Shown: piece by piece, positions 18,016 to 34,510 of the stretch
Layout: each line of letters starts with the position of its first letter
Position numbering within the stretch: the stretch's first letter is position 1
Assembly (NCBI RefSeq): GCF_014696435.1
Contig: NZ_JACJQG010000083.1
Coordinates: 1-39,048 of the forward strand
Source of the DNA: Calothrix anomala FACHB-343
Lineage (GTDB): Bacteria; Cyanobacteriota; Cyanobacteriia; Cyanobacteriales; Nostocaceae
Direction: 5' to 3'
DNA length: 39,048 nt
Translations under genes and position numbers: made by a program
The notes under the pieces: model-generated
Database searches by the model: none
What the model was told of the DNA's origin: nothing
Seen by the model: the letters and a program-made list of their open reading frames with translations, nothing else

Positions 18016-18246
18016 TTTCGCCTTCCAAAGGAGAATATTCTTGTTGAGAATAGAAAAGTTCTCGTTTGAAACATGAAACTTCGTCTTCCGAACACGAAAG
18101 TTCTCGTTGAGAACAGGAACATTTTCGTTCGGAACATGAAATTTCGCCTTCCGAACACGAAAGTTCTCGTTGAAAACATGAAACTTCACCTTCCGAACAG
18201 GAACATTCTCGTTTTCAACCTCAAGCGTCATGTTCTAGACTCGAAG
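18016..18246. repeat. 21-bp tandem repeat array, 11 units, open in several frames on both strands
   Basis: Eleven contiguous 21-bp units run from 18016 without any length change; the first ten are good and the eleventh (18226-18246) is degenerate. Unit types vary: one family has CTTCCGAACACGAAA in the middle to end (units at 18079, 18142 and 18184), another has TTCTCGTTGAGAACAGGAAC (18101). Several units are internally palindromic, for example TTCTC-GTT-GAGAA. Because 21 is divisible by three and the units lack stops, long frames exist on both strands, with seven-residue periodic products such as RKAKFHV-PNENVPV-LNENFRV (minus) and MKLRLPN-TKVLVEN (plus). None has a convincing start or binding site, so I treat it as a DNA repeat that may or may not be expressed. 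Confidence 0.85.
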
Positions 18247-19302: not shown

Positions 19303-19324
19303 TAATTTAATTACTAGCTGGAAA

Positions 19325-19352
19325 ATGGGCATGGGGCATGGGGCATTGGGCA
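19325..19352. repeat. Heptanucleotide tandem repeat (GGGCAT[T/G]) at the permease start
   Basis: Four imperfect 7-bp units lie between the ATPase stop and the permease start. Similar tracts occur at 24874 and 26613. They resemble the short tandemly repeated repetitive (STRR) sequences known from heterocystous cyanobacteria. Confidence 0.7.
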
Positions 19353-19356
19353 AGAG

Positions 19357-20124
19357 TCAAATAGAATTGCTATAGTCCATTGCGATCGCTAAAGCTTGGG
19401 AAACTTCGCGGCAATATTCCATATATACTGATGATGTGCGGAAAGAATCGTTACGGGGATAAGGCGCAGCAATTTCTATATCTGCGACTACTCGTCCAGG
19501 ATTTGTCCCCATCACTAAAACGCGATTGGATAAATATACCGCTTCATAAATATTGTGGGTGACAAAAACTACCGTCCAACGCTGTTGATCCCATAAATCC
19601 AGTAAATCGCTGTTTAGCTTGCTGCGAGTAATTTCATCTAGAGCACCAAATGGTTCATCCATTAATAAAATATTTGGCTGGGTAACTAAAGCCCGCGCAA
19701 TTGATACCCGCATTTTCATTCCCCCAGATAACTCACGGGGGTAGCTATGCTGACATTTCTCTAATCCTACCAATGCCAAAGTTTTCTCTACCAAACTCTC
19801 GGCATCTTTTACAGCTACCTTTGCCAACTTTAGTGGTAAACGGACATTTTCTTTTACATTTGCCCAAGGCATCAGTGCTGCATCTTGAAACACAAAGGCT
19901 AGTTTACGTGCTTGGGCAGGTAAACCCCAATCAATAGTACCAGAACTCATCTGTCCTAATCCGGCAATCAGTCGGAGAACTGTACTTTTACCACAGCCAG
20001 AAGAGCCGACTAAGCTGACAAATTGGGCTTCTGGGATAGCTAAATTTAAATCTTTTAAGGCAACTGTGCCATTAGCGTAGATTTTGCTAATGTGGCTGAG
20101 TTTAATTGCGGGAGGGTGATTCAT
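19357..20124 (-). CDS. ABC transporter ATP-binding protein, SsuB/TauB/ThiZ type
   Basis: A 255-residue ATPase that energises the adjacent permease. Walker A GSSGCGKST at about 40-48, signature LSGGMKMRVSIARAL, Walker B ILLMDEPFGALDE and the switch His in FVTHNIYEA are all present. The closest families are the sulfonate/taurine/pyrimidine-precursor importer ATPases. The gene lies downstream of the binding-protein gene, separated by 360 bp that hold a nested palindrome (20225-20443), and upstream of the permease. Substrate specificity comes from the binding protein, not from this subunit. Confidence 0.93.
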   Translation of the reverse strand: MNHPPAIKLSHISKIYANGTVALKDLNLAIPEAQFVSLVGSSGCGKSTVLRLIAGLGQMSSGTIDWGLPAQARKLAFVFQDAALMPWANVKENVRLPLKLAKVAVKDAESLVEKTLALVGLEKCQHSYPRELSGGMKMRVSIARALVTQPNILLMDEPFGALDEITRSKLNSDLLDLWDQQRWTVVFVTHNIYEAVYLSNRVLVMGTNPGRVVADIEIAAPYPRNDSFRTSSVYMEYCREVSQALAIAMDYSNSI

Positions 20125-20224
20125 TAATTAATATAAGGCAGAGGGCAGAGGGCAGAAGGTAAACCGCCAGATAATAAATAAAAACACATACCCTCATCAT
20201 AAAATTTGCCCAGAGAAGAAACTA

Positions 20225-20443
20225 GTAGGGGCGGGAAAACCCACCTGTGTCAACTTAACGCAAAACCCTTATCCTAACTGGCTCCCATGCTCTGCGTGGG
20301 AGCAATGATCCTGAGGCTCCGCCTCAATTTATCAGAAGACGAGGCGGAGCCTCGCAATACGCATTTCCAGCCGGAGGCTGGAAACGAGATAGAGAAAGCT
20401 TTTGAGCTTAAGTTGACACCAATGGGGAAAACCCCGCCCCTAC
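20225..20443. repeat. Nested palindromic repeat element, 219 bp, inside the ABC operon
   Basis: Outer ends GTAGGGGCGGG (20225) and CCCGCCCCTAC (ending 20443) are inverse; a second shell GTGTCAACTTAA pairs with TTAAGTTGACAC. Inside lie three separate hairpins: GGCTCCCA..TGGGAGC, GAGGCTCCGCCTC..GAGGCGGAGCCTC, and TTTCCAGCC-GGA-GGCTGGAAA. There is no coding potential. It separates the binding-protein gene from the ATPase gene and could attenuate or process the transcript, or be a passive mobile repeat. Flanks carry further heptamers (AATGACA) at about 20461-20485. Confidence 0.8.
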
Positions 20444-20484
20444 AATTGGGGATAATTTATAAATGACAAATGACCAATGACAAA

Positions 20485-21534
20485 TTACTGACCTTGATTG
20501 ACAAACTGTAAGGTAAATGCATCTTGATAATTAACATTGGGCTGAGACAGTCCGGTGTTTACCATGCTATCGAACAATGATTTCCAGCGTGCCTGTGTCA
20601 TTGCACCAATGCCTTGTTTTTCTGCGTCGCCTGACAAGATAATTCCCGATTCTTTGAGCTTTTCAATCCCATAAGCAATTTGCTCGTCAGTCATTTCGGG
20701 ATTCTCTTGTTTGATTAATTGATTACCTGGTTGGGGATTTTCTAAGTAACTGTACCAACCTTTAATCGAAGCATCAACAAATCGTTTGACTAAATCGGGA
20801 TTTTTGGCGACTAATTCTTTCTTGGTTTCAATTGTTGTGGCGTATGGTTCGTAACCATAATCTGCTAGTAAAAATACTAATGGTTTAAATCCACCTTGCT
20901 TTTCTACAGCAAAAGGTTCGGATGTAATGTAGCCTTGTTGGGCTGAGGTTTTATCTGCCAAAAATGGGGCAGGATTGAAATTATAGGGGCGTTTTTGTGC
21001 ATCTGTAAAACCATACTTAGCTTTCAGAAAAGGCCAATAATTCAGGTTAGCGGCGGCTGAGATATAAATCGGTTTGCCTTTGAGGTCGGCAAGGGTTTTA
21101 ATTGCTGTGTTGGGATGGGAAATAATACATTGGGGATCTTTTTGAAAGATTGCCGCTACCGTGATTTTGGGAATTCCTTGTGCTACGGCGTTTATGGCAT
21201 CAATGCCATAACCCATGAAAAAATCTACTGCTCCTCCCATCAATAACTGGGTACCACTAGGTACTTGGGGGCCACCCATTTTAATTGTGACATCCAGCCC
21301 GTGGTTTTTGTAGATTCCCGTTGCGATCGCCTGGTAAAATCCGCCGTGTTCTGCTTGGGCAAGCCAATTTGTACCAAAGGTAACTTTATCTAACCCTGAA
21401 CTTGTATTTGAAGCTGGATTGCTATTAGTACAAGCCGCAAGCAAACTGCTACTTATACCGATGCAACTGTACTGAAGAAACTGACGGCGACTAAGGCGAG
21501 AAATTGCAGTTGATGAGCATGGAGATTGATTCAT
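20485..21534 (-). CDS. ABC substrate-binding lipoprotein, NMT1/THI5-like
   Basis: A 349-residue periplasmic lipoprotein. The N-terminus has a twin-arginine-like SRRQFLQ at 15-21 and a lipobox LAAC with C35. The mature domain begins VTFGTNWLAQAEHGGFYQA, the NMT1/THI5-like signature shared with ThiY, which binds pyrimidine precursors of thiamin, and with related pyrimidine and riboflavin binders. Later blocks are 'GTQLLMGGAVDFFMGYGIDA' and 'TLADLKGKPIYISAAANLNY'. It is preceded 33 bp upstream by a TPR gene and followed by ATPase and permease, forming a complete importer. Lying divergent to URC1 and URC4, it is plausibly an importer of uracil or a related pyrimidine; a role in thiamin precursor or other small-molecule uptake remains possible. 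Confidence 0.88.
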   Translation of the reverse strand: MNQSPCSSTAISRLSRRQFLQYSCIGISSSLLAACTNSNPASNTSSGLDKVTFGTNWLAQAEHGGFYQAIATGIYKNHGLDVTIKMGGPQVPSGTQLLMGGAVDFFMGYGIDAINAVAQGIPKITVAAIFQKDPQCIISHPNTAIKTLADLKGKPIYISAAANLNYWPFLKAKYGFTDAQKRPYNFNPAPFLADKTSAQQGYITSEPFAVEKQGGFKPLVFLLADYGYEPYATTIETKKELVAKNPDLVKRFVDASIKGWYSYLENPQPGNQLIKQENPEMTDEQIAYGIEKLKESGIILSGDAEKQGIGAMTQARWKSLFDSMVNTGLSQPNVNYQDAFTLQFVNQGQ

Positions 21535-21567: not shown

Positions 21568-22038
21568 TTAGCTGATTCTGAATGTACATTCTAAAATCAG
21601 CTTTTGGTTCACCACAGAATAAGGTTGAATTTTCAGCGCGTTTTGAAAAGCTTGGATAGCTTCGCGATATTTTCCCAGAGCGGCATAACATAATCCCATA
21701 CCATGCAGTGCGCCAAAATGTACGGGATTTAAATTAATCACCATTTGGCAATCAGCTAAGGATCTTTGATAATCACCGATACTGTAGTAAAGAAAAGCAC
21801 GACGATTCCATGCCTCAGCAAAATCGGGTTGTTCTTCTATTAATTGGCTTAGGACTTTTTCAGCTTCCGTAGTTTCACCAGCATCAAGCAACTTCTGGCT
21901 GTTATCTATTTTCTCTAAGCCATAAATTCCCTTCTGCTGAAACCAAATCCGCCATAATTTCTTAGTGGCCTGTTCCCGAACTGTAGCGTCAGCATTTTTC
22001 AAATCTTCAAGTAAAGATCTGATCGATAAAGAATCCAT
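21568..22038 (-). CDS. TPR-repeat protein
   Basis: A 156-residue soluble protein. Residues about 1-45 are helical (SIRSLLEDLKNADATVREQA). Two to three tetratricopeptide repeats follow: 'QKLLDAGETTEAEKVLSQLI', 'AWNRRAFLYYSIGDYQRSLA', then 'GALHGMGLCYAALGKYREAI'. TPRs bind proteins; no enzymatic motif is visible. It is the first gene of the minus-strand transport operon (33 bp to the next start) and is divergent from URC1, with a palindrome between them, so it may share their regulation. Its role in transport or catabolism is unknown. Confidence 0.85.
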   Translation of the reverse strand: MDSLSIRSLLEDLKNADATVREQATKKLWRIWFQQKGIYGLEKIDNSQKLLDAGETTEAEKVLSQLIEEQPDFAEAWNRRAFLYYSIGDYQRSLADCQMVINLNPVHFGALHGMGLCYAALGKYREAIQAFQNALKIQPYSVVNQKLILECTFRIS

Positions 22039-22120: not shown

Positions 22121-22313
22121 TTCTCTTATTACAGTTGTAAATTACGCATTTTCCGTGTTGTATTTTAACTGTATTCAGTAATACTATTAATACGGATTTA
22201 AACAAATAAATTCATCCAAAATTAGTCATTAGGACATCATATATTTACCAATAGTTGACAAAACCCTATTGACTAATACTTGATAAAAACAGCACAAAAA
22301 AAATTAATTAATT

Positions 22314-23573
22314 ATGCCAAAGCAAAATAGCGGTTCCCGGCATATTGTTCTCACATCTCATCCCAATAGTGGTGGTACTAAGCCCATTCCGATTCACTGG
22401 GGAGCGAGTAATCCTCTGGAACGGGGGCCGATTATTGCGACTTTAACAAAGCAAGCACACCGCAATGTTATTGGGACTCATTCTGGTAGTTATGCGGTGT
22501 ATCGCGCTTTAGCAGTAGCTAGCGGTGCTTTACAATCAGATCATCGGGCTGATTTAACGAATACAGCGCCAGTAGCCCATATTGGCCCTCATCCGAGTTG
22601 GTTCGATGCTGATAAAATTGTTTCACTTGACCCCTTTGGGGCGGTAGGGAGTGAGGTATTTAGCTCTTATTTCGCTCAAGGCTATGACATCCGCCCGACG
22701 ATTGCTATTACTCAAGCGCATATTAATATGCCAGAACTGCAAGATGCGGTGGATAAAGGGCGCTTGCAGGTGGATGGGAAAATTATGAAGCCTGGTGGCG
22801 ATTTAGTGGTGACAAAGGCGGCGATTGAGCCTGTATGGTATTTACCAGGAATTGCCAAGCGGTTTGGCATTAAGGAAACCGATTTACGCCGTGCTTTATT
22901 TGAGCAAACTGGGGGAATGTTCCCGGAATTGGTGACACGTTCTGATTTAGAGGTGTTTTTGCCACCAATTGGCGGTGTCACTGTCTATATTGTCGGTGAT
23001 ATTAATGCGATCGCCGATCCGAATAAACCTTTAGCAGTGCGGGTACATGATGAATGTAACGGTTCTGATGTGTTTGGTTCCGATATCTGTACCTGTCGTC
23101 CTTATTTAGTGCATGGAATTGAGGTTTGCGTCCAAACTGCCCAAGAAGGGGGTGTAGGCGTAATTGTCTATTGCCGTAAAGAAGGACGGGCTTTGGGAGA
23201 AGTTACCAAATTCCTAGTTTACAATGCCAGGAAGCGTCAAGAAGGAGGCGATCGCGCTGATGCCTATTTTGCCCGGACAGAGTGCGTCGCAGGTGTTCAG
23301 GATATGCGCTTTCAAGAGTTAATGCCCGATGTATTGCATTGGTTAGGGATTACCCGAATTGACCGCATGGTATCCATGAGTAATATGAAATACAATGCCA
23401 TCACCCAAGCGGGGATTGAAATTGTCGAAAGAGTACCTATCCCAGAGGATTTAATTCCCCAGGATGCGCGGGTAGAAATTGAAGCTAAGAAGGCGGCAGG
23501 GTATTATACCACAGGTGAGGTATTAGATACAGAAGGTTTGGGAGAAGTAAAAGGGCGAGATTTGGAAAGTTAA
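22314..23573 (+). CDS. URC1-like GTP cyclohydrolase II family protein (uracil catabolism)
   Basis: A 419-residue protein with a GTP cyclohydrolase II fold in its C-terminal half. Zinc ligands are kept in C-x10-C-x-C form (C248, C259, C261 in ECNGSDVFGSDICTC). The catalytic EGR is present with R292 (YCRKEGRALG), and VSMSNMKYNA stands where RibA has TNNPxK. RibA is about 200 residues; the extra N-terminal domain of some 220 residues here, starting SRHIVLTSHPNSGGTKPIPI, is the mark of the URC1 type, which acts in the URC uracil-degradation route rather than riboflavin synthesis. The next gene is URC4, 52 bp on, and upp lies 2.4 kb downstream, which strongly supports the assignment. Riboflavin synthesis proper should need a separate RibA elsewhere. 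The exact reaction of URC1 is not deduced from sequence. Confidence 0.88.
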   Translation: MPKQNSGSRHIVLTSHPNSGGTKPIPIHWGASNPLERGPIIATLTKQAHRNVIGTHSGSYAVYRALAVASGALQSDHRADLTNTAPVAHIGPHPSWFDADKIVSLDPFGAVGSEVFSSYFAQGYDIRPTIAITQAHINMPELQDAVDKGRLQVDGKIMKPGGDLVVTKAAIEPVWYLPGIAKRFGIKETDLRRALFEQTGGMFPELVTRSDLEVFLPPIGGVTVYIVGDINAIADPNKPLAVRVHDECNGSDVFGSDICTCRPYLVHGIEVCVQTAQEGGVGVIVYCRKEGRALGEVTKFLVYNARKRQEGGDRADAYFARTECVAGVQDMRFQELMPDVLHWLGITRIDRMVSMSNMKYNAITQAGIEIVERVPIPEDLIPQDARVEIEAKKAAGYYTTGEVLDTEGLGEVKGRDLES

Positions 23574-23584
23574 AACAAATTGTA

Positions 23585-23606
23585 GAGACGCGATTCATCG
23601 CGTCTC
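23585..23606. repeat. Dispersed hairpin between URC1 and URC4
   Basis: GAGACGCGAT, loop TC, ATCGCGTCTC: perfect 10-bp arms, 12 bp after the URC1 stop. It is a copy of the dispersed hairpin at 16045. It ends 8 bp before the AGGAGG at 23614-23619 that serves URC4, so it could influence translation or mRNA stability between the two cistrons. Confidence 0.75.
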
Positions 23607-23625
23607 CTGCATTAGGAGGTGAAAA

Positions 23626-24864
23626 GTGGAAATAGGAACCGCAGAGACGCAGAGGACACAGAGAGAGTTAGTTGCATATCTTCGTTCGCCGGAAGCGATT
23701 CGGGAACGGTGTGGAGAATTGTTTTCCTGGGTGTGTGAGGGGAAGTCAGAGAATTTTCTCTGCGATTTGAATCAGTTGGGAAGGGTAGCGGATTATGTGA
23801 TGGAAGTAATACGGGGAGAATACCCGAATTTGGATGTTCCGTTTCATAGTCGCTGGCGACATTTTGAAGTTGGGGGTGTGGGGAGATTAGCCAAGTTAAA
23901 TACGCTGTTGGCGGGGTTATCTCCAGAGGAAAAGGCGGCAGCGAAGTTTGATTTGGCGATTATTAGCGTGCTATTAGATGCTGGTGCTGGGGATAGATGG
24001 CATTATCATGAGCAGGAAACTAATTTAAGGTTGGGGCGTTCGGAAGGGTTAGCGGTGGCGAGTTTCCAGATGTTTTGTCAAGGAAATTTTGCTAGTGATG
24101 GTTTACCCCAGGCTGATGCTTCTCGGTTACAACAATTAACTGAGGCGGAATTAGCAGCAGGGTTCCAGGTAACTGCTGATAATCCTTTGGTGGGGATTGG
24201 GGGAAGGTTGAATTTATTGCAAAAGTTAGGACAAGTTTTACTGGCTTCCCCCCATTTATTTGGTGATACAAATCCTCGTCCGGGGAATTTGGTTACATAT
24301 CTCTTGGGTAAATCGGAGAATGGACAGTTAGCTGCGACAACTGTATTAAGTGCAGTGTTGGAAGGGTTAAGTGATATTTGGCCAGGAAGATTAGAGATAG
24401 CTGGGGTAAATTTAGGCGATGTTTGGGAACATCCAGCGATTAGTGATGATGGTTTAGTCCCTTTCCATAAATTATCGCAGTGGTTAACATATTCTTTGTT
24501 AGAACCATTGCAAGAACTTGGTTTGACAATTACTGGTTTGGATCGACTCACTGGTTTACCAGAATATCGTAATGGGGGATTATGTCTGGATTTGGGACTG
24601 ATAAGCGTGAAAAATCCAGAAATTTTACACACATCTCACTCGGTAGCATCAGCAGTTATAGTTGAATGGCGGGCTTTGACTGTGATTCTTTTAGATAGAA
24701 TTGCGGCGACAGTCCGGGAAAAATTAGGTATGAGTCCAGAGGAACTACCTTTAGTGAAAATCCTCCAAGGGGGAACTTGGACAGCTGGACGCAAAATAGC
24801 CGCAGAATTGAGAACAGGTGGGATACCCCCCATACAAATAGAGAGTGATGGGACGGTATTCTAA
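23626..24864 (+). CDS. URC4/DUF1688 family protein (uracil catabolism)
   Basis: A 412-residue soluble protein of the URC4 (DUF1688) family, required for uracil degradation by the URC pathway in yeast such as Lachancea kluyveri; its chemistry is not settled. Family blocks include 'FHSRWRHFEVGG', 'LLDAGAGDRWHYHE', 'RSEGLAVASFQMF', 'PRPGNLVTYLL', 'DVWEHPAISDDGLVPFHKLS', 'LTGLPEYRNGGLCLDLG' and 'LQGGTWTAGRKIAAELR'. The GTG start has a perfect AGGAGG 6 bp upstream. Residues 5-14 (TAETQRTQRE) are encoded by the dispersed 'GCAGAGACGCAGAGGACACA' repeat, so the repeat has become the N-terminus. It is co-directional with URC1. Confidence 0.9.
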   Translation: MEIGTAETQRTQRELVAYLRSPEAIRERCGELFSWVCEGKSENFLCDLNQLGRVADYVMEVIRGEYPNLDVPFHSRWRHFEVGGVGRLAKLNTLLAGLSPEEKAAAKFDLAIISVLLDAGAGDRWHYHEQETNLRLGRSEGLAVASFQMFCQGNFASDGLPQADASRLQQLTEAELAAGFQVTADNPLVGIGGRLNLLQKLGQVLLASPHLFGDTNPRPGNLVTYLLGKSENGQLAATTVLSAVLEGLSDIWPGRLEIAGVNLGDVWEHPAISDDGLVPFHKLSQWLTYSLLEPLQELGLTITGLDRLTGLPEYRNGGLCLDLGLISVKNPEILHTSHSVASAVIVEWRALTVILLDRIAATVREKLGMSPEELPLVKILQGGTWTAGRKIAAELRTGGIPPIQIESDGTVF

Positions 24865-24873
24865 GTTGAAAAT

Positions 24874-24922
24874 GGGCATGGGGCATTGGGCATTGGGCAT
24901 TGGGCATTGGGCATTGGGCATT
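24874..24922. repeat. Heptanucleotide tandem repeat (GGGCATT)7
   Basis: Seven uninterrupted 7-bp units starting 9 bp after the URC4 stop; the first is GGGCATG. STRR-type. Variable copy number between strains would be expected. Confidence 0.85.
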
Positions 24923-25033
24923 GGGAAAACAGATTTTCATACTTAGTTGTGAGATTTTCTCGTGATTGACTGATTGGAAAGATGGGAAAGGGGACAAGGA
25001 AACTGACTAATGACAAATGACAAATCAAGATTC

Positions 25034-25183
25034 GTAGGTTGGGTGCAGCGTAGCGTAACCCAACATTTTATACACTATTTGAAGCGTTGATTTTGAGCGT
25101 TGAATTAAGTATTTGGTTATTTAAATAATTTTTATTTTCTTGATATCATGTGTTGGGTTACGCAAAGCCTCCACCCAACCTAC
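25034..25183. repeat. 150-bp MITE-like element with double-shell inverted ends
   Basis: Left end GTAGGTTGGGTG...GTAACCCAACA (25034-25065) and right end TGTTGGGTTAC...CACCCAACCTAC (25151-25183) are inverse, with 12-bp outer and 11-bp inner matching blocks. The AT-rich centre has no gene. The right end overlaps the 3' end of the pentapeptide gene and supplies its TAG stop. It belongs to the same family as the element at 16872-16971. Confidence 0.75.
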
Positions 25184-25770
25184 GGGAGATTGCGATCGCA
25201 CTTTATTTCACCCACCGAGCGACCGTCTGGGAGAATAATGCGTCCGCCACCTGGAGGTATATATTCTGGCAGTCTGAAATTGGAAACTTGAAAACTGGCT
25301 CCGGTGAGATCACTATCATTGAACCCAGAATCACTGTCGAAACTAGCTCCATCAAAGATTGCACCTCTGAAACTAGTCTGAATCAAAGCAGCCATGATGA
25401 AGTTAGCGCCTCGGAGAGAAGCTCTGTCAAAATTAGCCCCTTTAATGGCACTTTCTTCTCCACCAATAACAGCCCCATCCAAAATAGCTTCAGTCAAATC
25501 AGCATCAATAATACCAGAACCTTTGAGATTGACTCCTCGCAAGTCAGCTCTACTCAAGTTAGCTCCGGTGAAATCAACCTCGCACAGGGCAGCACCGCAC
25601 AATTTAGCACAACTCAAGTTAGCTCTATTGAGTTTAGCCCCACTCAAGTCAGCCCCACTCAAGTTAATTTCCATCAATTTAGTGTTATCCAAAAAAACAC
25701 CCCTGAGTCTGACTCCAGGAAAGTTTCTTTCCCCAGTAGCATAACGCTGCAACAACTCTTCAGCATCCAT
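25180..25770 (-). CDS. Pentapeptide-repeat protein
   Basis: A 196-residue protein whose residues about 20-165 are A(D/N)LXX pentapeptide repeats (LSGADLSGAKLNRANLSCAK, then LTEAILDGAV, LRGANF, FRGAIFDGAS), expected to fold as a right-handed quadrilateral beta helix. Such proteins are abundant in cyanobacteria and mostly of unknown role. A short non-repeat N-terminus (MDAEELLQRYATGERNF) is typical of cytoplasmic members. It lies on the opposite strand between URC4 and upp, so it interrupts rather than belongs to the URC cluster. Its stop codon lies in the end of a MITE-like element. A perfect dyad GGTATC-AAA-GATACC lies at 25842-25856, about 70 bp before the start. The 256-residue frame on the other strand is an antisense artefact of the repeats. 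Confidence 0.9.
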   Translation of the reverse strand: MDAEELLQRYATGERNFPGVRLRGVFLDNTKLMEINLSGADLSGAKLNRANLSCAKLCGAALCEVDFTGANLSRADLRGVNLKGSGIIDADLTEAILDGAVIGGEESAIKGANFDRASLRGANFIMAALIQTSFRGAIFDGASFDSDSGFNDSDLTGASFQVSNFRLPEYIPPGGGRIILPDGRSVGEIKCDRNLP

Positions 25771-25958
25771 AATTTGCCTCCCGCTTCAAATAACACATAT
25801 AAAGTACAGCTATTACCTTCAACGGTAGCTTCATCGACCCAGGTATCAAAGATACCCATACAATTACTTAGGACTTCGGCAATCGTTCCTCACCCCCCAC
25901 TCACAATCGCCACCTTATGAGTACATTGAAAGTGGGGACTTCTGCGACACGTTAAAAA

Positions 25959-26606
25959 ATGACAATTGACCAACAAAATCAAGTAACGCTTATTGAACAT
26001 CCATTGATTCAGCATAAGTTAACGCTGATGCGGCGGGTGGAAACTAGTACAACAAAATTTCGGAATCTTGTTAAAGAAATTAGTTTGTTGTTGGCTTATG
26101 AGGTAACTAGGGATTTACCTCTGAAATACGAGGAAATTAAAACGCCACTCGCACCGATGAATGCGCCTGTGCTTGCGCCTGATAAAAAGTTGGTGTTAGT
26201 TTCGATTATGCGGGCGGGACAGGGTATTTTAGATGGAATGCTGGAGTTAATGCCTTCAGCTAGGGTGGGACATGTGGGTTTATATCGCGATCCGAAAACC
26301 CTGATTCCCATCGAATATTATTTTAAAGTCCCCCATGATGTGGAACATCGAGACATGATTGTTGTCGATCCGATGTTAGCAACGGGGAATTCGGCTGTAG
26401 CGGCGGTAGAACGTTTAAAATCAACTAATCCTTTATCAATCAAGTTCGTTTGCTTACTTGCTGCACCGGAAGGAATTGAGCATTTCTGTGAGGTGCATCC
26501 AGATGTACCTTTATACACAGCCGCAATTGACGACCATTTAGACGAACATGGTTATATTATCCCTGGCTTGGGCGATGCAGGCGATCGCTTATTTGGGACA
26601 AAGTAA
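25959..26606 (+). CDS. upp: Uracil phosphoribosyltransferase
   Basis: A 215-residue enzyme that makes UMP from uracil and PRPP in the cytosol. Motifs: SIMRAGQGI with the MRAG turn at 84-87, the flexible [12 protein letters not shown] loop, the PRPP-binding [16 protein letters not shown] at 135-150 and the C-terminal uracil site [17 protein letters not shown]. Length and motif spacing are standard. In the URC pathway this activity (URC6) is the entry step, so its position just after URC1 and URC4 and next to a nucleoside importer is meaningful; it also serves plain salvage. The start is the ATG at 25959, which begins [20 protein letters not shown], as expected. Confidence 0.95.
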
Positions 26607-26717: not shown

Positions 26718-27650
26718 CTATTGACTATTTTCTTTCAAATAGGGAGTACCTAAGGCTTTGGGCGGTGTAGATTTGCCTGCTAATCCGACTAATGCTAATA
26801 AAGCGATCGCATAAGGTAACATGACTAAAAATTGGTAGGGGATATTTGCGCCTAAGGCTTGAATTCGCAGTTGCAAGGCTTCTGTAGCGCCAAATAGCAT
26901 ACAAGCTAAGGCACTATATATAGGATGCCATCTGCCAAAAATTAAAGCTGCGATCGCAATAAATCCTTTACCTGCACTCATCCCCTCGGCAAAAAATCTG
27001 ACTTGGACTAAAGTTAAATAAGCACCGCCTAAACTCGCTAAACAGCCGCTAATTATTACGGCGATATAACGGACATTTTCTACTGATATTCCGGCTGTAT
27101 CTGCTGCTTTGGGCGATTCGCCTACAGCCCGCAATGTTAAGCCAAAGCTAGTTTGATATAAAATATAGGTAGTTAGAAATACTAAAAATATTAGTAAATA
27201 TACCAAAATATCTTGCTGAAATAATAGCGAACCTAGCACCGGAATATTCGCTAAACCAGGAATGATAATTGCGGGAATTCCTGGTAATTGCTGTGTACTG
27301 CTACCGCTAAATACTAACCTGCCTAAAAATGATGTTAACCCAGCAGCGACGAGATTAATTGCTAGCCCAGAGACTAGTTGGTCAATGCGCAAAGTTATAC
27401 ATAAAATAGCATGGAGTAATCCTATTAATGCGCCAGCTAATAAGGTGGCTAGGATACCAAGCCAAGGGTTACTAGTGTAGAAAGTTGCAGCAGCGCTGGT
27501 AAAAGCACCTGTGAGTAACATTCCTTCTAAGGCGATGTTTAACACTCCTGAGCGTTCGGAGTATAATCCGCCTAGAGCAGCGAATCCTAAAGGGATGGTG
27601 AGGCGTAAGGTGGCTATGAGGTAATCAGAGAAGAAGTTGAGATTGTTCAT
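26718..27650 (-). CDS. Nucleoside-type ABC transporter permease (NupQ/YufQ-like)
   Basis: A 310-residue inner-membrane protein of the branched-chain/ribose/nucleoside permease family (BPD_transp_2) with 8-10 hydrophobic segments. Diagnostic blocks: 'LRLTIPLGFAALGGLYSERS' and 'GVLNIALEGMLLTGAF', then 'LRAVGESPKAADTAGISVEN', 'GKGFIAIAALIFGRWHP' and 'FGATEALQLRIQALG'. This is the shorter of the two permeases found in nucleoside importers such as Bacillus NupNOPQ. It follows the longer permease on the same strand after a 131-bp gap that holds a dispersed repeat. The matching ATPase and binding lipoprotein lie 2-5 kb upstream. The substrate is probably purine or pyrimidine nucleosides. Confidence 0.92.
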   Translation of the reverse strand: MNNLNFFSDYLIATLRLTIPLGFAALGGLYSERSGVLNIALEGMLLTGAFTSAAATFYTSNPWLGILATLLAGALIGLLHAILCITLRIDQLVSGLAINLVAAGLTSFLGRLVFSGSSTQQLPGIPAIIIPGLANIPVLGSLLFQQDILVYLLIFLVFLTTYILYQTSFGLTLRAVGESPKAADTAGISVENVRYIAVIISGCLASLGGAYLTLVQVRFFAEGMSAGKGFIAIAALIFGRWHPIYSALACMLFGATEALQLRIQALGANIPYQFLVMLPYAIALLALVGLAGKSTPPKALGTPYLKENSQ

Positions 27651-27698
27651 GTCTGTTTTTAAAGACTCTGTTTAGTCTGCATTTTGTTTCATTTATTT

Positions 27699-27780
27699 AA
27701 CCGCAGAGGCGCAGCGAAAAGTCTGAGCGGAGGTTTCCTCCGATCAGAACTTTTCAAGACAGAGAACACAGAGATAAGAG
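27699..27780. repeat. Dispersed hairpin repeat, simple form (copy 2)
   Basis: CCGCAGAGGCGCAGC, GAAAAGTCTGA (27716-27726), a small hairpin CGGAGG-TTT-CCTCCG, then ATCAGAACTTTTCAAGACAG. The outer halves match the element at 4560-4690, which carries a longer centre. It fills the gap between the two permease genes and ends just before the upstream permease's stop codon. Confidence 0.65.
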
Positions 27781-27781
27781 A

Positions 27782-28822
27782 TTAAAGATTCTTCAATTTT
27801 GAATTTTGAATTGTTATCTTTCGTTCCACCGCTAGACTGATAGCTATAAACAATACTGTTAATCCTTGAATCGCATAAACTACTGTGACTGGCACGCCAG
27901 CACTACGCTGCATGACGTTTGCACCACTGCGCAGGGCGGCAAAAAATAAGGATGTGAGGATGACACCAAAGATGCTACCACGACTTAAAAAGGCGATCGC
28001 AATGGCGTCAAATCCATAACCTGGGGAAACTTGTTCAAATAAGCGGAATTTTAACCCCATTACTTCACAACTTCCAGCTAATCCTGCTAATCCTCCGGCT
28101 AATGCCATTACTAGCATAATTGTTCGTTCTACCGATATGTGAGCATAACGGGCGGCAATTGGGTTTTGTCCGATGGCGGTGATTTGGTAACCTAAAGGCG
28201 ATCGCTCTAATAATACCCACAATATCCCGGCGGTAAGTAATGCTAATAAAATTCCGGCATGAGCTAGGCTTTGTGGTAATATAATCGCTAGGCGGGCGGT
28301 GTTGGCAATTAACGGCGAATAAGGGCTAGGCGCACCTAGAGCCATTAAAGGATTTTGCACGAGATAGCTAACTAAATTCACTGCAATATAGTTGAGTAAT
28401 AAGGTGGTAATTACTTCGTTTACTCCCCTTATGGCTTTAAGATAACCGGGAATCCAACCCCAAACTGCACCAAACAGAAATCCGGCAAACAGTGCTAAGG
28501 GAATATGAATAAACGCAGGTAATGCGGTTACATATAAGCCAATTAAAGTACTGCCTAATGCACCTAAATAAATTTGTCCTTCGCCACCAATATTAAATTG
28601 TCCCGCTCGCAGTGCTACTAATACTCCTAAGCTGGTGAATAATAGCGGTGTCATTTTTGTGAGGGTGTTACCAAATCCAAAATAGGTAGATAGGGATTCT
28701 TGAAATAAAGCTGTGTAGGCGGTGAGGGGATTCGCTCCAGCCATGAGGATGAGGATAGCACCGACGATTAAAGCAGATACTATGGCAATTAGCGGTGATA
28801 GGATTGGTAGCAGGAATTTCAT
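27782..28822 (-). CDS. Nucleoside-type ABC transporter permease (NupP/YufP-like)
   Basis: A 346-residue polytopic permease, the longer partner of the gene downstream. Signature blocks are 'FNIGGEGQIYLGALGSTLIG', 'RGVNEVITTLLLNYIAVNLV', 'ITAIGQNPIAARYAHISVER' and 'PGYGFDAIAIAFLSRGSIFG', typical of nucleoside and BMP-dependent importers. The N-terminus (MKFLLPILSPLIAIVSALIV) is the first membrane helix. It should form the membrane channel with the shorter permease and use the double ATPase at 30768-32234. The permease pair is separated from the ATPase and lipoprotein genes by a 1.9-kb island, so it may have its own promoter upstream of 28822. Confidence 0.92.
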   Translation of the reverse strand: MKFLLPILSPLIAIVSALIVGAILILMAGANPLTAYTALFQESLSTYFGFGNTLTKMTPLLFTSLGVLVALRAGQFNIGGEGQIYLGALGSTLIGLYVTALPAFIHIPLALFAGFLFGAVWGWIPGYLKAIRGVNEVITTLLLNYIAVNLVSYLVQNPLMALGAPSPYSPLIANTARLAIILPQSLAHAGILLALLTAGILWVLLERSPLGYQITAIGQNPIAARYAHISVERTIMLVMALAGGLAGLAGSCEVMGLKFRLFEQVSPGYGFDAIAIAFLSRGSIFGVILTSLFFAALRSGANVMQRSAGVPVTVVYAIQGLTVLFIAISLAVERKITIQNSKLKNL

Positions 28823-28902
28823 GCCATTAGTTGCGATCGTGATTAGTGGCGATCAAATTTGTCGTTGTGCAGATTAAATACAATAAATTTTCCTAAATTC
28901 AT

Positions 28903-29574
28903 CTAACCAAAGTTTAAAAACATCGCATTTCCTTTGTCAGCAGCATCTTGATAATATTTCACAAGAGGATTGTATGTATAATCAAACAAATGATTATAAT
29001 CATCTTCTTTTAAACCTCTATATTTTAACCTTTGTCCGAGCTGCTCAAGAGAAAAATTTGATAAAGCGTTAGCTATTGTTCTTACTTCATCGGCAGTTAA
29101 ATACATCAGAGGATAATCACAGCCATAATAACTAATTCCATTACCTCCCAGCACAGCATTAATTAAAGGTAGATTATCTTCTTTGTTTGTACTAACAACT
29201 ATTTCAGATAAATTAACTGTTTCATCATATACATGATATCCTGTAAGTAAAAAAAATATTGGTCGCCAGGTTTTATCTAAATCAAGATATATACCTTTGC
29301 CTTCAGCTATAATTAAAGGAATATCTTCTTTTATTTCGTTAAATTGTTCTAAATTTTTTGCTGATAATTTATCTAATGTCTCATTTACATAATTAGTTGC
29401 CTCATTAAACCAATCAACATCATCAGGATCATCTGGATCTATGATAAAATTTTGCCAAAATGGTGAGTCCTCTAAGTATTTTGCATTTAAAAACAATCCA
29501 GCAAAATCAGGATATTTCTTGAATTTCTCCAAAAGATAGGGATTTACTTGTTTAAGTTGCAATGTGATTCCCAT
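28903..29574 (-). CDS. DUF1877 family protein (YfbM-like)
   Basis: A 223-residue soluble protein that fits the DUF1877 pattern: start MGITLQLKQV, 'YLDLDKTWRPIFFLLTG', 'INAVLGGNGISYYGCDYPLM', 'YLTADEVRTIANALSNFSLE' and an end 'YYQDAADKGNAMFLNFG'. The function of the family is unknown; such genes often occur as multicopy accessory genes. Base composition is more AT-rich than that of its neighbours. A decayed second copy of the C-terminal part lies immediately upstream at 29598-29825. It sits in the island that splits the nucleoside-importer genes. Confidence 0.82.
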   Translation of the reverse strand: MGITLQLKQVNPYLLEKFKKYPDFAGLFLNAKYLEDSPFWQNFIIDPDDPDDVDWFNEATNYVNETLDKLSAKNLEQFNEIKEDIPLIIAEGKGIYLDLDKTWRPIFFLLTGYHVYDETVNLSEIVVSTNKEDNLPLINAVLGGNGISYYGCDYPLMYLTADEVRTIANALSNFSLEQLGQRLKYRGLKEDDYNHLFDYTYNPLVKYYQDAADKGNAMFLNFG

Positions 29575-29597
29575 TTTATAGCTAAATTATTATTAAG

Positions 29598-29825
29598 TTA
29601 ACTGAGATATATCAACATAGCACAGTCTTTGTTGGCTGCATCTTGTTAATACTCCATAATTTCTCCTTTGATATCTATTAATCCTTCTAATACTTCATAG
29701 TCTCACCAGACGGTAGATATATAAATATCAGGATTGAGCATAATAGCTTGATTCAATCTTTCCTTCAAGCCGGCTGCTGTAATCTTGGATAACGCTTCTG
29801 CAAATTGCTTTTTATTTTGGCAATT
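29598..29825 (-). pseudogene. DUF1877 remnant with two in-frame stops
   Basis: One minus-strand frame reads KQFAEALSKITAAGLKERLN, QAIMLNPDIYISTVW, stop, DYEVLEGLIDIKGEIMEY, stop, QDAANKDCAMLIYLS, stop. This matches the C-terminal third of DUF1877 proteins and the end of the neighbouring intact gene (ALSNFSLEQLGQRL ... YYQDAADKGNAMF). The N-terminal two thirds are absent. It is a dead paralogue left by tandem duplication or by loss of a longer gene. It accounts for most of the gap between the intact gene and the antitoxin. Confidence 0.8.
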
Positions 29826-29932
29826 GATTTACTGTACGAAAGTATATTCGATCGCAATTGGTAGTGATAAGATTGTTAACAGGTGTTAAAGGCGATCACT
29901 TATAATTTTTGGTTTGGGAGGTAAGATTTACT

Positions 29933-30190
29933 ATGCAGTTCATTAATTCTTTAAAGCTAGATCAAATTGAACAATCAATCAGAAATTTATCACGTGAAGA
30001 ACAGTTGTGGTTAGTTGAACGAATTATCCACAATATGAGAGTCAGTGCATTAAAAGATACTTCAAATATTACAGCACATAGTCTTGAACAACAACTAGCA
30101 AACATGGCAAACGATCCAGTAGTTCAAGCAGAATTAATAGCTATTAATCAAGAATTTGCTAATACTGAATTTGATGGTTTGAATGAATAA
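29933..30190 (+). CDS. Antitoxin of a MazEF/PemIK-like module
   Basis: An 85-residue protein (from the ATG at 29933; a TTG at 29909 is less likely because GGGAGG lies about 11 bp before the ATG). It has the 'LDQIEQSIRNLSREEQLWLV' helix typical of short cyanobacterial antitoxins and a C-terminal acidic tail that could wrap the toxin. It overlaps the next gene by one base (TAATG), the usual coupling in toxin-antitoxin operons. The gene is intact, while the partner toxin carries a nonsense codon. It is opposite in strand to the flanking transporter genes, a sign of insertion. Confidence 0.8.
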   Translation: MQFINSLKLDQIEQSIRNLSREEQLWLVERIIHNMRVSALKDTSNITAHSLEQQLANMANDPVVQAELIAINQEFANTEFDGLNE

Positions 30191-30537
30191 TGAATATCCA
30201 GCGTGGGGAAATATACTTTGTTAACTTAAATCCAGTTCAAGGTAGAGAACAAGCAGGATAACGTCCAGTTTTAGTACTTTCTATTGATGCAATTAATCGT
30301 CTTCCCTTAGTTATTACTGTAGTCGTTGGTACTAAAGGAGCAAATATTCTTCGTGATTATCCAACGATGGTAAGAGTTCCTCCATCCGAGAGTGGTTTAA
30401 CTTTAGAAACTGTATTTTTGTGTTTTCAAATTCGTTCTCTCGATCCAAAACGATTTCCAGAAAATCCTGCGGGTAAGTTGTCTGAACAGATGATGCTATT
30501 AGTTGAAGCAACTACTCGCTACTGTTTAGGCTTATGA
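30190..30537 (+). pseudogene. MazF/PemK-like toxin with a nonsense mutation at codon 24
   Basis: Reading from the ATG coupled to the antitoxin gives MNIQRGEIYFVNLNPVQGRE, QAG, TAA (30259-30261), then RPVLVLSIDAINRLPLVITV, VVGTKGANILRDYPTMVRVP, PSESGLTLETVFLCFQIRSL and so on to a natural stop at 30535-30537. The frame is otherwise unbroken for 115 codons, and the stop replaces what is normally Lys or Thr in the QAGxRPVLVLS block of this ribonuclease family (one base change from AAA). The toxin is therefore truncated after 23 residues unless the stop is read through or the base call is wrong. Confidence 0.88.
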
Positions 30538-30553
30538 AATATTATTTTTAGGT

Positions 30554-30748
30554 TTAAATTTTGTTTTGACTGTAATGTTGATTTTGAATCGCTGCAATTT
30601 TATCAGCAGTTAAAGTCACCACTTTACCATCCTTCATAACACTAATTGATTGTCCAAGCTGGCGATGTCTTTCAATCGCAGCTGCAATTGCTGCTTTGAC
30701 TCCAACATCAATTGTGTTATGTAGCTTTTGCATCTCTTCTTCAGTCAT
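30554..30748 (-). CDS. Small hypothetical protein, 64 residues
   Basis: MTEEEMQKLHNTIDVGVKAA begins a short helix-rich N-terminal half (AAIAAAIERHRQLGQ) followed by a likely beta hairpin, SISVMKDGKVVTLTADKI. It is 19 bp after the nucleoside ATPase on the same strand and could be co-transcribed with it. The pattern looks like a conserved small cyanobacterial protein, but I do not recognise a function. It has no signal peptide, membrane segment or metal-binding motif. Confidence 0.65.
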   Translation of the reverse strand: MTEEEMQKLHNTIDVGVKAAIAAAIERHRQLGQSISVMKDGKVVTLTADKIAAIQNQHYSQNKI

Positions 30749-30767
30749 TATAGAATTTTTCCCCGCA

Positions 30768-32234
30768 TCACCTTCCTTCCCCAGCCATCAATAAACCAAT
30801 CTCTGCTACTGTCGCTGTTGCTGCATCTAAAATAGCGACAAACTCACCTCTATAGATTACGGCAAGGCGATCGCTCATTGCCATGACTTCTTCTAATTCG
30901 GTGGAAATATACAAAATCGCGGCACCGCGATCGCGTTCTGCTAAAATTCGACTATGCACGGCTGCTGTTGCACCAACATCTAAGCCGCGTGTGGGTTGCA
31001 TGGCGATAATTAACCCAGGTTCTCGTGCTAATTCTCGCGCTAATACTACTTTTTGCTGATTTCCTCCCGATAGCTGACTAACTTTGATATCTTTATCTGT
31101 AGCGCGGATATCAAATTCTTGCATTGCAGCTTGGGCATGATGCGCGATCGCTTTTTGTTGTAACAGAAACCGACGACAAAAGGGCAAATATTTAAAAGAT
31201 TTTAAAATTAAGTTTTGGGCAATGCTAAATTGCATAATTAATCCCATTGTTTGTCTATCTTCGGGGATGTAACCAACTATGCAAGGTTGATTTGTAAACT
31301 TTATGTTACCTTGCTTTACTTTTCGTAACCCTGCTAAGGCATCAGCTAATTCTCTTTGTCCATTTCCATCAACACCAGCAACGCCCAAAATTTCGCCTTT
31401 GTGCAGTTCAAAAGAAACGTTATTTATAGTTGTAATTCCTCGATAATCTGCAACTTGTAAGTTTTGGACTGCGAGGATAACTTCTCCTGAAGATATGGGC
31501 GGTTTATTTAATTGTAAATTAACTTCTTTCCCTACCATTAATGCTGCTAATTTTTGGGGTGTGGTAGATTTAGTTGCTGTTGTCGCTATTACTTTTCCCT
31601 GACGCAAAACTGTGACTGTATCGCAGAGGTTCATTACCTCGTCTAATTTGTGGCTGATAAAAATAATGGTATTACCTGCATCTGCGAGTTGACGCAAAAT
31701 AGCAATTAATGATTTTACTTCTGGTGGTGTTAATACTGCTGTTGGTTCATCGAGAATTAATAACTTAGCTTGGCGGTAAAGTACTTTGAGAATTTCTACT
31801 CGTTGTTGTATTCCTACGGGTAAATTCTCTACCTTTGCTGTTGGATCAATTTCTAATCCGTAAGCTTGGGATAATGCAGCAATTTCTTGGTGTTTTTGGT
31901 GCAAATTTAACCGCCAACTTGGTTTTGTACCTAAGATAATATTTTCTGTGACAGTTAACTGCGGTACCAGCATGAAATGTTGATGAATCGTACCAATACC
32001 TAATTTAATTGCTTGATGAGGCGAAGTAATTTTAATAGCTTGTTCTGCAAGATAAATTTGTCCTGCATCTGGTTGGTAAAGTCCGCTAATGATATTCATT
32101 AAGGTACTCTTACCTGCACCATTTTCGCCTAGAATGGCATGAATACTACCAGATTTAACATTGAGGCTAATAGCGTCATTAGCAATAAAGGAACCAAAGC
32201 ATTTAGTAATATTTTCTAAGCGTAAATAGTTCAT
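30768..32234 (-). CDS. Nucleoside-type ABC transporter ATPase, double domain (NupO/YufO-like)
   Basis: A 488-residue protein with two ABC domains, as in nucleoside and sugar importers. Domain 1 has Walker A GENGAGKST, Walker B LLILDEPTAVLTP and a degenerate signature LPVGIQQRVEIL. Domain 2 has an altered Walker A (GVDGNGQRELADAL), a good signature LSGGNQQKVVLAREL and Walker B LIIAMQPTRGLDVG, the usual asymmetry of this family. A longer frame starts at 32300, but homology (MNYLRLENITKCFGSFIAND) begins at the ATG at 32234, and the extra codons lie in a dispersed repeat. It lies 78 bp after the BMP lipoprotein gene and is on the same strand as the permeases. Confidence 0.93.
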   Translation of the reverse strand: MNYLRLENITKCFGSFIANDAISLNVKSGSIHAILGENGAGKSTLMNIISGLYQPDAGQIYLAEQAIKITSPHQAIKLGIGTIHQHFMLVPQLTVTENIILGTKPSWRLNLHQKHQEIAALSQAYGLEIDPTAKVENLPVGIQQRVEILKVLYRQAKLLILDEPTAVLTPPEVKSLIAILRQLADAGNTIIFISHKLDEVMNLCDTVTVLRQGKVIATTATKSTTPQKLAALMVGKEVNLQLNKPPISSGEVILAVQNLQVADYRGITTINNVSFELHKGEILGVAGVDGNGQRELADALAGLRKVKQGNIKFTNQPCIVGYIPEDRQTMGLIMQFSIAQNLILKSFKYLPFCRRFLLQQKAIAHHAQAAMQEFDIRATDKDIKVSQLSGGNQQKVVLARELAREPGLIIAMQPTRGLDVGATAAVHSRILAERDRGAAILYISTELEEVMAMSDRLAVIYRGEFVAILDAATATVAEIGLLMAGEGR

Positions 32235-32258
32235 GTAAATAAAAATTATCCAGATACT

Positions 32259-32290
32259 GTAGGGTGTGTTGTCGCGTAGCGCAACGCACC
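32259..32290. repeat. 32-bp dispersed repeat, copy A
   Basis: GTAGGGTGTGTTGTCGCG followed by TAGCGCAACGCACC. An inverted copy with a single mismatch lies at 35246-35277. It sits between the lipoprotein and ATPase genes. Confidence 0.75.
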
Positions 32291-32312
32291 AACACAACAT
32301 TAGTGAGTAAAT

Positions 32313-33383
32313 TTATTCTGCGACTTTTTTGACGCAGCGTGTATCTTTACCAGCTTCCTGACAATCTGTAAAAATAATTCTCTTCTCAAGAATATCGTCT
32401 TTAACATTTAATACTTGTTCCTGTACTGCTTCGGGTACAGTCTGACCAAATTTACCTAAAAATAGAATATCTGCTCTTTCTAAACCAATTGTATATATTT
32501 GCCCTTTGAGTTGTTTTTTCTGAGCTAAATCTGCCAAATAAGCTATAGCTAAATTTAAGCGTTTGACTGCACTGGTTAACACGGCTTTTGGTGCTATATC
32601 TAATTGATCGTTGGTATTGCCAAAAGCATATACTCCCTTTTCACTAGCGGTTTGTAAGACAACAGCCGATGCGTTATCTAACCATTGATAGATGACATCA
32701 GCGCCGGAAGAAATAATTGCTAAAGTCGCTTCTTTAGCTTTGGCAACATCATTCCAATCACCTGTGAAAGTAGAGGTAACTTGAATATTTGGTTTCACAG
32801 ATTTTGCGCCTAATTCAAATCCTCTCAATTCTCCTTCGGTGGCGGGAAATTTTTCTCCTGCAATATAAGCTAGTTTATTAGATTTAGTCATGGAAGCGCC
32901 GATAATTCCACATAAATAACTGGCTTGTAAATGATCTATTCTTAATGAGGCGATATTTTCAGCTTTAAGATTACCATTTACCCCCACAAAAAAAGTTTGA
33001 GGAAATTGTGGCGCGATTTGTTCAATTGCGGCATCAAATTGTCCGCCATGGGCAAAGATAAGATTGTAGCCTTTACGCGCAAAATCTGTGAGAACTTCAG
33101 TTTGATCCGCTTGCGCTACCTTTTCTACATAGGCGATTTCTGCATTTAGCTTTTGCTTGGCGAGGGTGACGCCTTCATAGCCAGATTGATTCCAAGCTTT
33201 ATCGGTGATAATTCCAGGAAGTGCGATCGCTATTTTAAACCCTGAAGTACCACCCCCTGCTGTGGTTGTGGTTTTTGCTGTTGGTGTGGTTTGGTTACTA
33301 CTACAAGCTTTTAGCATTAAGCTAGTACCTAACGCTGCGGAACCAAACCAGATAAATTGACGCCGATTTACGTTTTTTGTCAT
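32313..33383 (-). CDS. BMP-family nucleoside-binding lipoprotein
   Basis: A 356-residue lipoprotein that captures substrate for the nucleoside-type importer. The N-terminus has NRRQFIWFG (twin-arginine-like) and a lipobox LKAC with C27, followed by a Thr-rich linker. Family blocks include IAIALPGIITDKAWNQSGYE, 'GVTLAKQKLNAEIAYVEKVA', 'GYNLIFAHGGQFDAAI', 'HLQASYLCGIIGASMTKSNK' and 'GADVIYQWLDNASAVVLQTA'. This is the PnrA/BMP family, whose studied members bind purine or pyrimidine nucleosides. It heads the transport genes and is divergent from the DoxX/ureidoglycolate lyase-like pair. Confidence 0.92.
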   Translation of the reverse strand: MTKNVNRRQFIWFGSAALGTSLMLKACSSNQTTPTAKTTTTAGGGTSGFKIAIALPGIITDKAWNQSGYEGVTLAKQKLNAEIAYVEKVAQADQTEVLTDFARKGYNLIFAHGGQFDAAIEQIAPQFPQTFFVGVNGNLKAENIASLRIDHLQASYLCGIIGASMTKSNKLAYIAGEKFPATEGELRGFELGAKSVKPNIQVTSTFTGDWNDVAKAKEATLAIISSGADVIYQWLDNASAVVLQTASEKGVYAFGNTNDQLDIAPKAVLTSAVKRLNLAIAYLADLAQKKQLKGQIYTIGLERADILFLGKFGQTVPEAVQEQVLNVKDDILEKRIIFTDCQEAGKDTRCVKKVAE

Positions 33384-34015: not shown

Positions 34016-34510
34016 ATGAGTACATCACAAACAATACAACAATTACAGGCGAAATTAATTACACCGGAAAACTTTCAACCTTTCGGACAGGTGATTTTTC
34101 CTAGTGATGATGGTAAAGCTTTTGATGCGGAAGATGCGCAATTAAATTTGCAAAATGGTACGCCGCGATTTTATATTATGCGCTTGCATCGTAACGGACG
34201 CAAATTTCATAAAATTACCCGCCACGTGCAATGTACTCAATGTTTAGGTTCTTTAGCAGGGAAAGATTGGTTAATGGGGGTTTGCCCGCCGCATAATGAA
34301 TTAGATGTACCAGTTTTAGCAGAAATCGCCGCTTTCCGCATTCCTGGAAATTGTTTTATTAAATTAAATGTCGGTACTTGGCACGCTGGCCCTTATTTTG
34401 ACCATGAGTTTGTTGATTTTTATAATTTAGAATTGAGCGATACCAATGTTGTAGATCATTTTACTCATGATTTTTTTCAGAGTCATCAATTAAAGTTTGA
34501 GATGGTTTAG
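34016..34510 (+). CDS. Ureidoglycolate lyase (AllA)-like protein
   Basis: A 164-residue cupin-type protein of the ureidoglycolate hydrolase/lyase family. Blocks: 'LITPENFQPFGQVIFPSDDG', 'RFYIMRLHRNGRKFHKITRH', 'VQCTQCLGSLAGKDWLMGVC', 'IAAFRIPGNCFIKLNVGTWH' and 'AGPYFDHEFVDFYNLELSDT'. The conserved GTWHAGP near residue 121 is the family hallmark. AllA splits ureidoglycolate into glyoxylate and urea. No allantoin genes are visible in the window; instead it stands beside a nucleoside importer and the URC genes, which makes a ureido intermediate of pyrimidine breakdown an attractive alternative substrate. That is inference. The function could also be generic purine catabolism. Confidence 0.83.
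   Translation: MSTSQTIQQLQAKLITPENFQPFGQVIFPSDDGKAFDAEDAQLNLQNGTPRFYIMRLHRNGRKFHKITRHVQCTQCLGSLAGKDWLMGVCPPHNELDVPVLAEIAAFRIPGNCFIKLNVGTWHAGPYFDHEFVDFYNLELSDTNVVDHFTHDFFQSHQLKFEMV

Follow-up and report, generated by a model that had tools for sequence, protein, structure and literature searches.

Four uracil-degrading routes are known, and the URC (uracil catabolism) pathway is among them, as stated in passages of papers on URC. Such passages describe the same three protein families, URC1, uracil phosphoribosyltransferase (UPRT), and DUF1688, for the urg1-urg2-urg3 genes of S. pombe, where they are clustered, and for URC of Lachancea kluyveri, in which uracil is converted to urea. The present study concerns a stretch of 39,048 nucleotides from the cyanobacterium Calothrix anomala FACHB-343 (contig NZ_JACJQG010000083.1), referred to as a whole as the window, in which genes for URC1, URC4 (DUF1688), and UPRT lie close together. 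The linkage of URC genes in bacteria was reportedly noted by Andersen et al. in 2008, and the kind of locus is known, because pairs of URC1 and URC4 have been recorded in fungi as well as bacteria. Among the literature matches listed (in one search, the best 30 of 47), there was no paper on URC in cyanobacteria. The locus is real and functionally coherent, and it belongs to a host group for which our literature searches found no study. We consider it probable that it represents the core of a URC pathway that degrades uracil to scavenge nitrogen.

The URC locus and its occurrence

An earlier note made from the sequence had placed the three genes on one strand within 22314-26606, which proved exact in coordinates and reading frames (Table 1), and had read them as a URC-type uracil-catabolism cluster, a view that is supported by the linked homologs. 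URC1 contains the Pfam domains PF12471 GTP_CH_N (1.3e-88) and PF00925 (4.6e-18) and scored 776.8 bits with NCBIfam NF005536 (cut-off 403). URC4 matches PF07958 DUF1688 across its full length (6.6e-154), and the UPRT of the window scored 267.7 bits with TIGR01091 (cut-off 208.35). The genome (9.24 Mb, 144 contigs) holds one URC4. URC4 starts 52 bp past URC1, and UPRT follows 1.1 kb downstream, beyond an inserted opposite-strand gene. The three genes are linked as claimed, but they form no simple operon in this strain because a pentapeptide-repeat gene lies on the other strand between urc4 and upp. The insertion of ~0.9 kb that carries it is missing at the same place in a close relative (locus L033) and adjoins an array of TGGGCAT heptamers (24873-24925).

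Table 1. Features of the URC region and its surroundings in the window
Feature	Position	Strand	Basis
URC1, UTP cyclohydrolase-type (predicted; GTP_CH_N + GTP cyclohydrolase II domains), 419 aa	22314..23573	+	Pfam, NCBIfam, alignment
URC4 (DUF1688), 412 aa; predicted Qng1-related ribotide N-glycosidase	23626..24864	+	Pfam, predicted fold
upp, URC-type UPRT, distinct from the other copy on contig C75	25959..26606	+	NCBIfam, trees
NtcA-type box GTATTCAGTAATAC (GTA-N8-TAC) in the promoter region shared by URC1 and the divergent TPR gene	22171..22184		motif conservation
Divergent TPR-repeat gene	21568..22038	-	Pfam; relative in 29/68 cyanobacterial loci
Pentapeptide-repeat gene, inside ~0.9 kb insertion (~25024-25957)	25180..25770	-	Pfam, E 6e-28
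BMP-type ABC transporter genes, with other genes between	26718..33383	-	best NCBIfam names "putative B6", all under cut-off
Ureidoglycolate-lyase-like gene	34016..34510	+	PF04115 4e-9; far under AllA cut-off

Among 386 genomes of the phylum, matches to URC4 were found in 33, to the URC1 N-domain in 36, and to both in 31 (Fisher 4e-38, a figure that the kinship of the genomes overstates). What the seven discordant genomes contain is fragmentary: URC1 is present as short pieces in G125, G167, G278, G352, and G376; G334 has a partial URC4 that includes a stop; and G354 combines URC1 pieces with a URC4 that contains three stops. In G039, both genes are decayed. Full-span matches to both were obtained in 30 genomes (the URC1 of G215 being divided between two frames), and the genes are at most 6 kb apart in 22 of these and separate in 8, which means that their co-occurrence is not merely linkage. 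Loss in place is shown by the relic loci L172-L176, four of them from one genus, in each of which pieces of URC1 lie next to a full-length tetratricopeptide repeat (TPR) gene; across these five loci the pathway seems to have been lost repeatedly, or its loss to have spread, beside that gene.

Gene order was compared in 80 fetched loci, 68 cyanobacterial and 12 from outside the phylum, which are the best 80 matches and not a random sample. URC1, URC4, and UPRT are in this order on one strand in 45 of the 68 cyanobacterial loci and in 9 of the 12 others (alphaproteobacteria, myxobacteria, a planctomycete, and unassigned); 21 of the 68 do not have all three genes, some owing to contig ends.

In most URC-positive genomes, there is a second UPRT. 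The upp model matched all 61 genomes searched, 60 of them above the cut-off; 30 were URC-positive, and the 31 URC-negative ones were hand-picked among relatives and are not random. Copies of at least 258 bits were found in 26 of the 30 URC-positive genomes and none of the 31 chosen URC-negative genomes (Fisher 2e-13), and the remaining copies above the cut-off, which score at most 243 bits, are presumably housekeeping enzymes. Trees were built without loci L001-L032, without hits that contain stops or fall short of 185 aa, and without the one of the 12 non-cyanobacterial loci that lacks a UPRT hit. In them, URC-type UPRTs of cyanobacteria and other phyla form a cluster that is separate from the 15 housekeeping UPRTs of cyanobacteria (support 0.93-0.97). 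The window UPRT shows a mean identity of 66% with 11 URC-linked UPRTs from outside the cyanobacteria; its identity is 49% with E. coli Upp and 40% with housekeeping UPRTs.

A conserved NtcA-type box upstream of URC1

An NtcA-type box sits ~130 bp upstream of URC1 (Table 1). A -10-like TAN3T element, TAAATT, begins 22 nt past it on the URC1 side, and the box fits the consensus of NtcA-activated promoters, GTA-N8-TAC with TAN3T ~22 nt downstream. The motif is weak alone, with 17 occurrences in the window versus 5.9 expected, and only its conservation counts. Within the 320 bp upstream of URC1, no other 14-mer is as conserved across 28 loci, and 24 of these carry the motif exactly; among named loci with intact URC1 it is present in 23 of 27, versus 2.6 expected from shuffles. 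It was found upstream of UPRT in none of 27 loci, and the upstream regions of nine other neighbor genes gave 0-2 hits each. Upstream of URC4 it occurs in 7 of 28 loci, and the match before URC4 in the window (23380) is inside the URC1 coding sequence. Outside the clade, the box is present in 3 of 40 loci, approximately the shuffle rate (8.3%).

Instead of URC1, the box might serve the divergent TPR gene, an explanation that has a real chance of being correct, even if we do not favor it. The box lies between both genes, the motif is found upstream of the TPR gene in 23 of 27 loci because the region is shared with URC1, and -10-like elements exist on both sides, in 13 of 24 loci on the TPR side versus 12 of 24 on the URC1 side, so that they are as common on the one side as on the other. 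Relatives of the TPR gene are beside URC1 in most of the 29 loci that have one (elsewhere in L072 and L077), and the gene is full length and stop-free where URC1 is decayed. In six loci the TPR gene is full length but URC1 beside it has decayed or is missing; two of these loci retain the box, as would be expected if it served the TPR gene, but in the other four it is broken or absent, and compared with the 23 of 27 loci that keep it with intact URC1, the difference reaches a Fisher p of 0.02, from small numbers and related genomes. Left out of the six were L178, in which no TPR gene was found, and L179, in which the TPR gene is ~10 kb from the URC1 pieces and the motif match is at another place. 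At the TPR genes of L072 and L077, where URC1 is intact, there is no box. Different half-sites of the box are altered in L172, L174, and L176. With this pattern of motif conservation, URC1 is a candidate for control by NtcA in C. anomala.

Proposed pathway and fate of the products

In the pathway proposed here, the dedicated UPRT would convert uracil and phosphoribosyl pyrophosphate (PRPP) into UMP, and general kinases would raise UMP to UTP. URC1 would then open the uracil ring, with the loss of pyrophosphate, to form a ring-opened ureido ribotide, and URC4 would hydrolyze the ribose C1'-N bond of this ribotide, or of a ribosylurea phosphate derived from it, in a Qng1-like manner. Ribose-5-phosphate could become PRPP again, urea would be the substrate of urease, and the three-carbon rest might end as malonate semialdehyde. 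The genome encodes urease (UreC 980 bits, contig C60), and a urea-using enzyme exists in all 30 URC-positive genomes, the sole one without urease having a urea carboxylase above the cut-off (6 of the 31 genomes searched have one). Directly upstream of URC1, 6 of the 12 non-cyanobacterial URC loci have an aldehyde dehydrogenase gene. The four of these that were scanned all matched best with the model of CoA-acylating (methyl)malonate-semialdehyde dehydrogenase, three above the cut-off, which is consistent with malonate semialdehyde being the three-carbon product; for yeast, 3-hydroxypropionate is reported as that product in a passage of the literature. RutA, which would indicate another uracil route, was above the cut-off in none of the 30 URC-positive cyanobacteria, and its best match in the C. 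anomala genome reached 155.8 of 498.3 bits.

Several observations weigh against this pathway. Of the 80 fetched loci, 16 have no UPRT and 10 no URC1, some owing to contig ends, and an intact second UPRT is missing in 4 of the 30 URC-positive genomes (G062, G195, G336, and G203, which holds just a broken piece). With E. coli Upp, the URC-type UPRT shares 49% identity but the cyanobacterial housekeeping copies share 43%, so the URC-type enzyme may be an ordinary bacterial Upp that arrived with the pathway, as judged by this one outside yardstick. The urease alpha subunit is not enriched, being found in 29 of 30 URC-positive and 30 of 31 URC-negative genomes, and no relative of the semialdehyde dehydrogenase was detected at E <= 1e-30 in the 68 cyanobacterial loci. 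In addition, G332 encodes a protein that reaches 436.5 of the 498.3 bits required for RutA, and thus one URC genome may hold a rival route.

The module could also have another role, mainly the control of pyrimidine nucleotide pools by removing an overflow of UTP or UMP, although we consider this unlikely. The reported substrate class, known from the title of a paper, is UTP, an internal nucleotide, and no scanned protein of the window is named uracil permease. Against such a role stand the second UPRT, the NtcA-type box, and a urea-using enzyme in every URC-positive genome, though urease is general in the group. Nitrogen scavenging remains the preferred role, and the locus points to such a route in multicellular cyanobacteria.

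Predicted reactions of URC4 and URC1

The most useful new element of this study is the link between URC4 and Qng1. The predicted fold and the catalytic residues of URC4 agree with the Qng1-type N-glycosylase superfamily, and the similarity extends over the whole chain. The structure relatives were taken from Foldseek's own ranking (the VIA-align list), and the split fifth Qng1 gene (L170/L171) was excluded. In the active-site block, Lys, Gln, and Tyr are kept and an acid is at the same place. The predicted structure of URC4 suggests an enzyme that removes the base from a nucleotide, which offers a new clue to its function. Qng1/DUF2419 is a queuosine-5'-monophosphate N-glycosylase, whereas the substrate of URC4, which is some 80-90 residues longer, is presumably the ureido ribotide. 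The relationship is weakened by an identity of only 15-17% and by the catalytic acid, which is Asp in Qng1 and Glu in URC4. PF10343 (Qng1/Q_salvage) gave no match to URC4, for which only DUF1688 was matched in the Pfam scan at E <= 0.001. Qng1/DUF2419 itself is present in 5 of 292 genomes; in two of the five (L166 and L168, phylum members of outer families), an apparent tgt, recognized by eye, is directly behind.

No mechanism for URC4 was found among the literature matches listed and in passages of papers on URC; in the passage concerned, a yeast metabolic-model paper states its reaction as "ribosylurea to urea" with no mechanism given. That silence, the change of Asp to Glu, and the general point that a shared fold is no proof of function would allow URC4 to cut no N-glycosidic bond and to hydrolyze the ring-opened product at its ureido or enamide moiety, with the Qng1 fold reused. 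We find this doubtful, given the whole-chain similarity, the retained Lys, Gln, and Tyr with an acid at the same position, and the fact that "ribosylurea to urea" is itself the cleavage of an N-ribosyl bond. Should URC4 belong to the Qng1 superfamily as a ribotide N-glycosidase, it might supply a step that has been missing, the release of urea or ureidoacrylate from ring-opened UMP. The cyanobacterial pathway would be an NtcA-controlled module with its own UPRT, and a ureidoglycolate-lyase-like protein encoded beside that UPRT may complete its work. This complete scheme is tentative, and we would not yet bet on it. Hydrated 3-ureidoacrylate is ureidoglycolate plus one CH2, and the same cut would yield urea and malonate semialdehyde. 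The Qng1 relationship names a likely reaction for URC4, two catalytic residues to mutate, K282 and E313, and substrates to try.

As for URC1, the earlier note had stated that it keeps the zinc site and the catalytic Arg but replaces the TNNPxK block of RibA, and the alignments agree: all 29 aligned URC1s have the C-x10-C-x-C site (C248-x10-C259-x-C261), Asp330/Arg332 line up with D-x-R in the RibBA of this genome, and SMSNMK is found where RibBA has TNNPRK. The retention of D-x-R is expected if pyrophosphate is lost as in the mechanism of GTP cyclohydrolase II. URC1 is a full-length homolog of the solved structures 7EEV and 7EJ3 (E 6e-197), and its zinc motif and D-x-R were matched in the alignment with them. 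Profile scores support the grouping of URC1 with 7EEV/7EJ3 and not with RibA, because it gave 60.1 bits with the RibA model TIGR00505 (cut-off 205.85) and 67.9 bits with PF00925, versus 250.2 for a separate RibBA. Thus, on profile scores and not a tree, URC1 was not placed within RibA, and the separate canonical RibBA rules it out as the genome's only RibA. A bacterial UTP cyclohydrolase is the subject of a 2021 ACS Catal paper, known by its title and citation, and of a theoretical study from 2022, known by its citation. 7EEV and 7EJ3 are probably the structures of the 2021 paper, and assignment of URC1 to the UTP cyclohydrolase class, with the activity predicted, is supported by the zinc site, D-x-R, and the 7EEV/7EJ3 family; the PDB molecule name of both entries, "GTP cyclohydrolase II," is at odds with it. 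This label on URC1-type genes is a misleading annotation. The statement of the earlier note that the chemistry is poorly described in bacteria holds for URC4 but not for URC1, which has relatives with solved structures and a UTP cyclohydrolase citation. That URC1 serves riboflavin or deazaflavin synthesis as a divergent GTP cyclohydrolase II, with URC4 and UPRT as chance neighbors, is very improbable, since, despite the name given by automatic annotation (NF005536 and the PDB molecule name), URC1 is far under the RibA-type cut-offs, has the TNNPxK block replaced, coexists with a canonical RibBA encoded elsewhere, and co-occurs with URC4 even where unlinked.

Other genes of the window

The ureidoglycolate-lyase-like gene is located 34-91 bp behind URC-type upp in several distant cyanobacteria (L065, L066, L013, L160, and L161), is behind upp in G060 and G116 though URC1 and URC4 are on other contigs, and adjoins URC1 in G008 and G213. 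It is present in 29 of 33 genomes with URC4 versus 74 of 353 without; the latter count led us to reject it as a strict URC gene, and it is kept only as a lead to a possible extra member of the pathway. Allantoinase was above the cut-off in none of the 30 URC-positive genomes, lower matches reaching 292.7 of 357.85 bits, and allantoicase was found in none of the 30, but its control matched nowhere, and the absence of allantoin breakdown is thus not shown.

Permease 1 of the BMP-type ABC (ATP-binding cassette) transporter has relatives in 16 of the 68 cyanobacterial loci and 1 of the 12 others (L107, 40-43%), and the transporter possibly supplies a nucleoside or pyrimidine. An SsuABC/NMT1-type transporter (18478-21534) was rejected as a fixed part of URC because its binding protein occurs in just 15 of the 68 cyanobacterial loci; SsuB-type matches in non-cyanobacterial loci show only 36-40% identity. 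A GlcD-like FAD-binding oxidase is encoded on the minus strand upstream of URC1 (e.g., L050 3920-5269) in 13 of the 80 loci, all cyanobacterial.

No Rfam element scored above its gathering score in the window. A tandem array of 21/63-base units lies at 17889-18213 with a matching repetitive open reading frame whose reality is unclear. On the minus strand at 35288-36482, a Thg1-type (tRNA-His guanylyltransferase) gene overlaps a weakly polynucleotide-kinase-like gene, and the two might constitute an RNA-repair pair; an exo/endonuclease-phosphatase gene (37947-38738) is near them.

Comparison with known systems

The cyanobacterial locus differs from yeast URC in its candidate NtcA site and, in this strain, in the splitting of the cluster by a pentapeptide-repeat gene. 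Whereas yeast URC uses a urea amidolyase (URC3,5), urea would probably be removed by urease in the cyanobacterium. The Rut pathway of E. coli (RutA-G) likewise makes uracil available as a nitrogen source, but URC1 and URC4 belong to other protein families.

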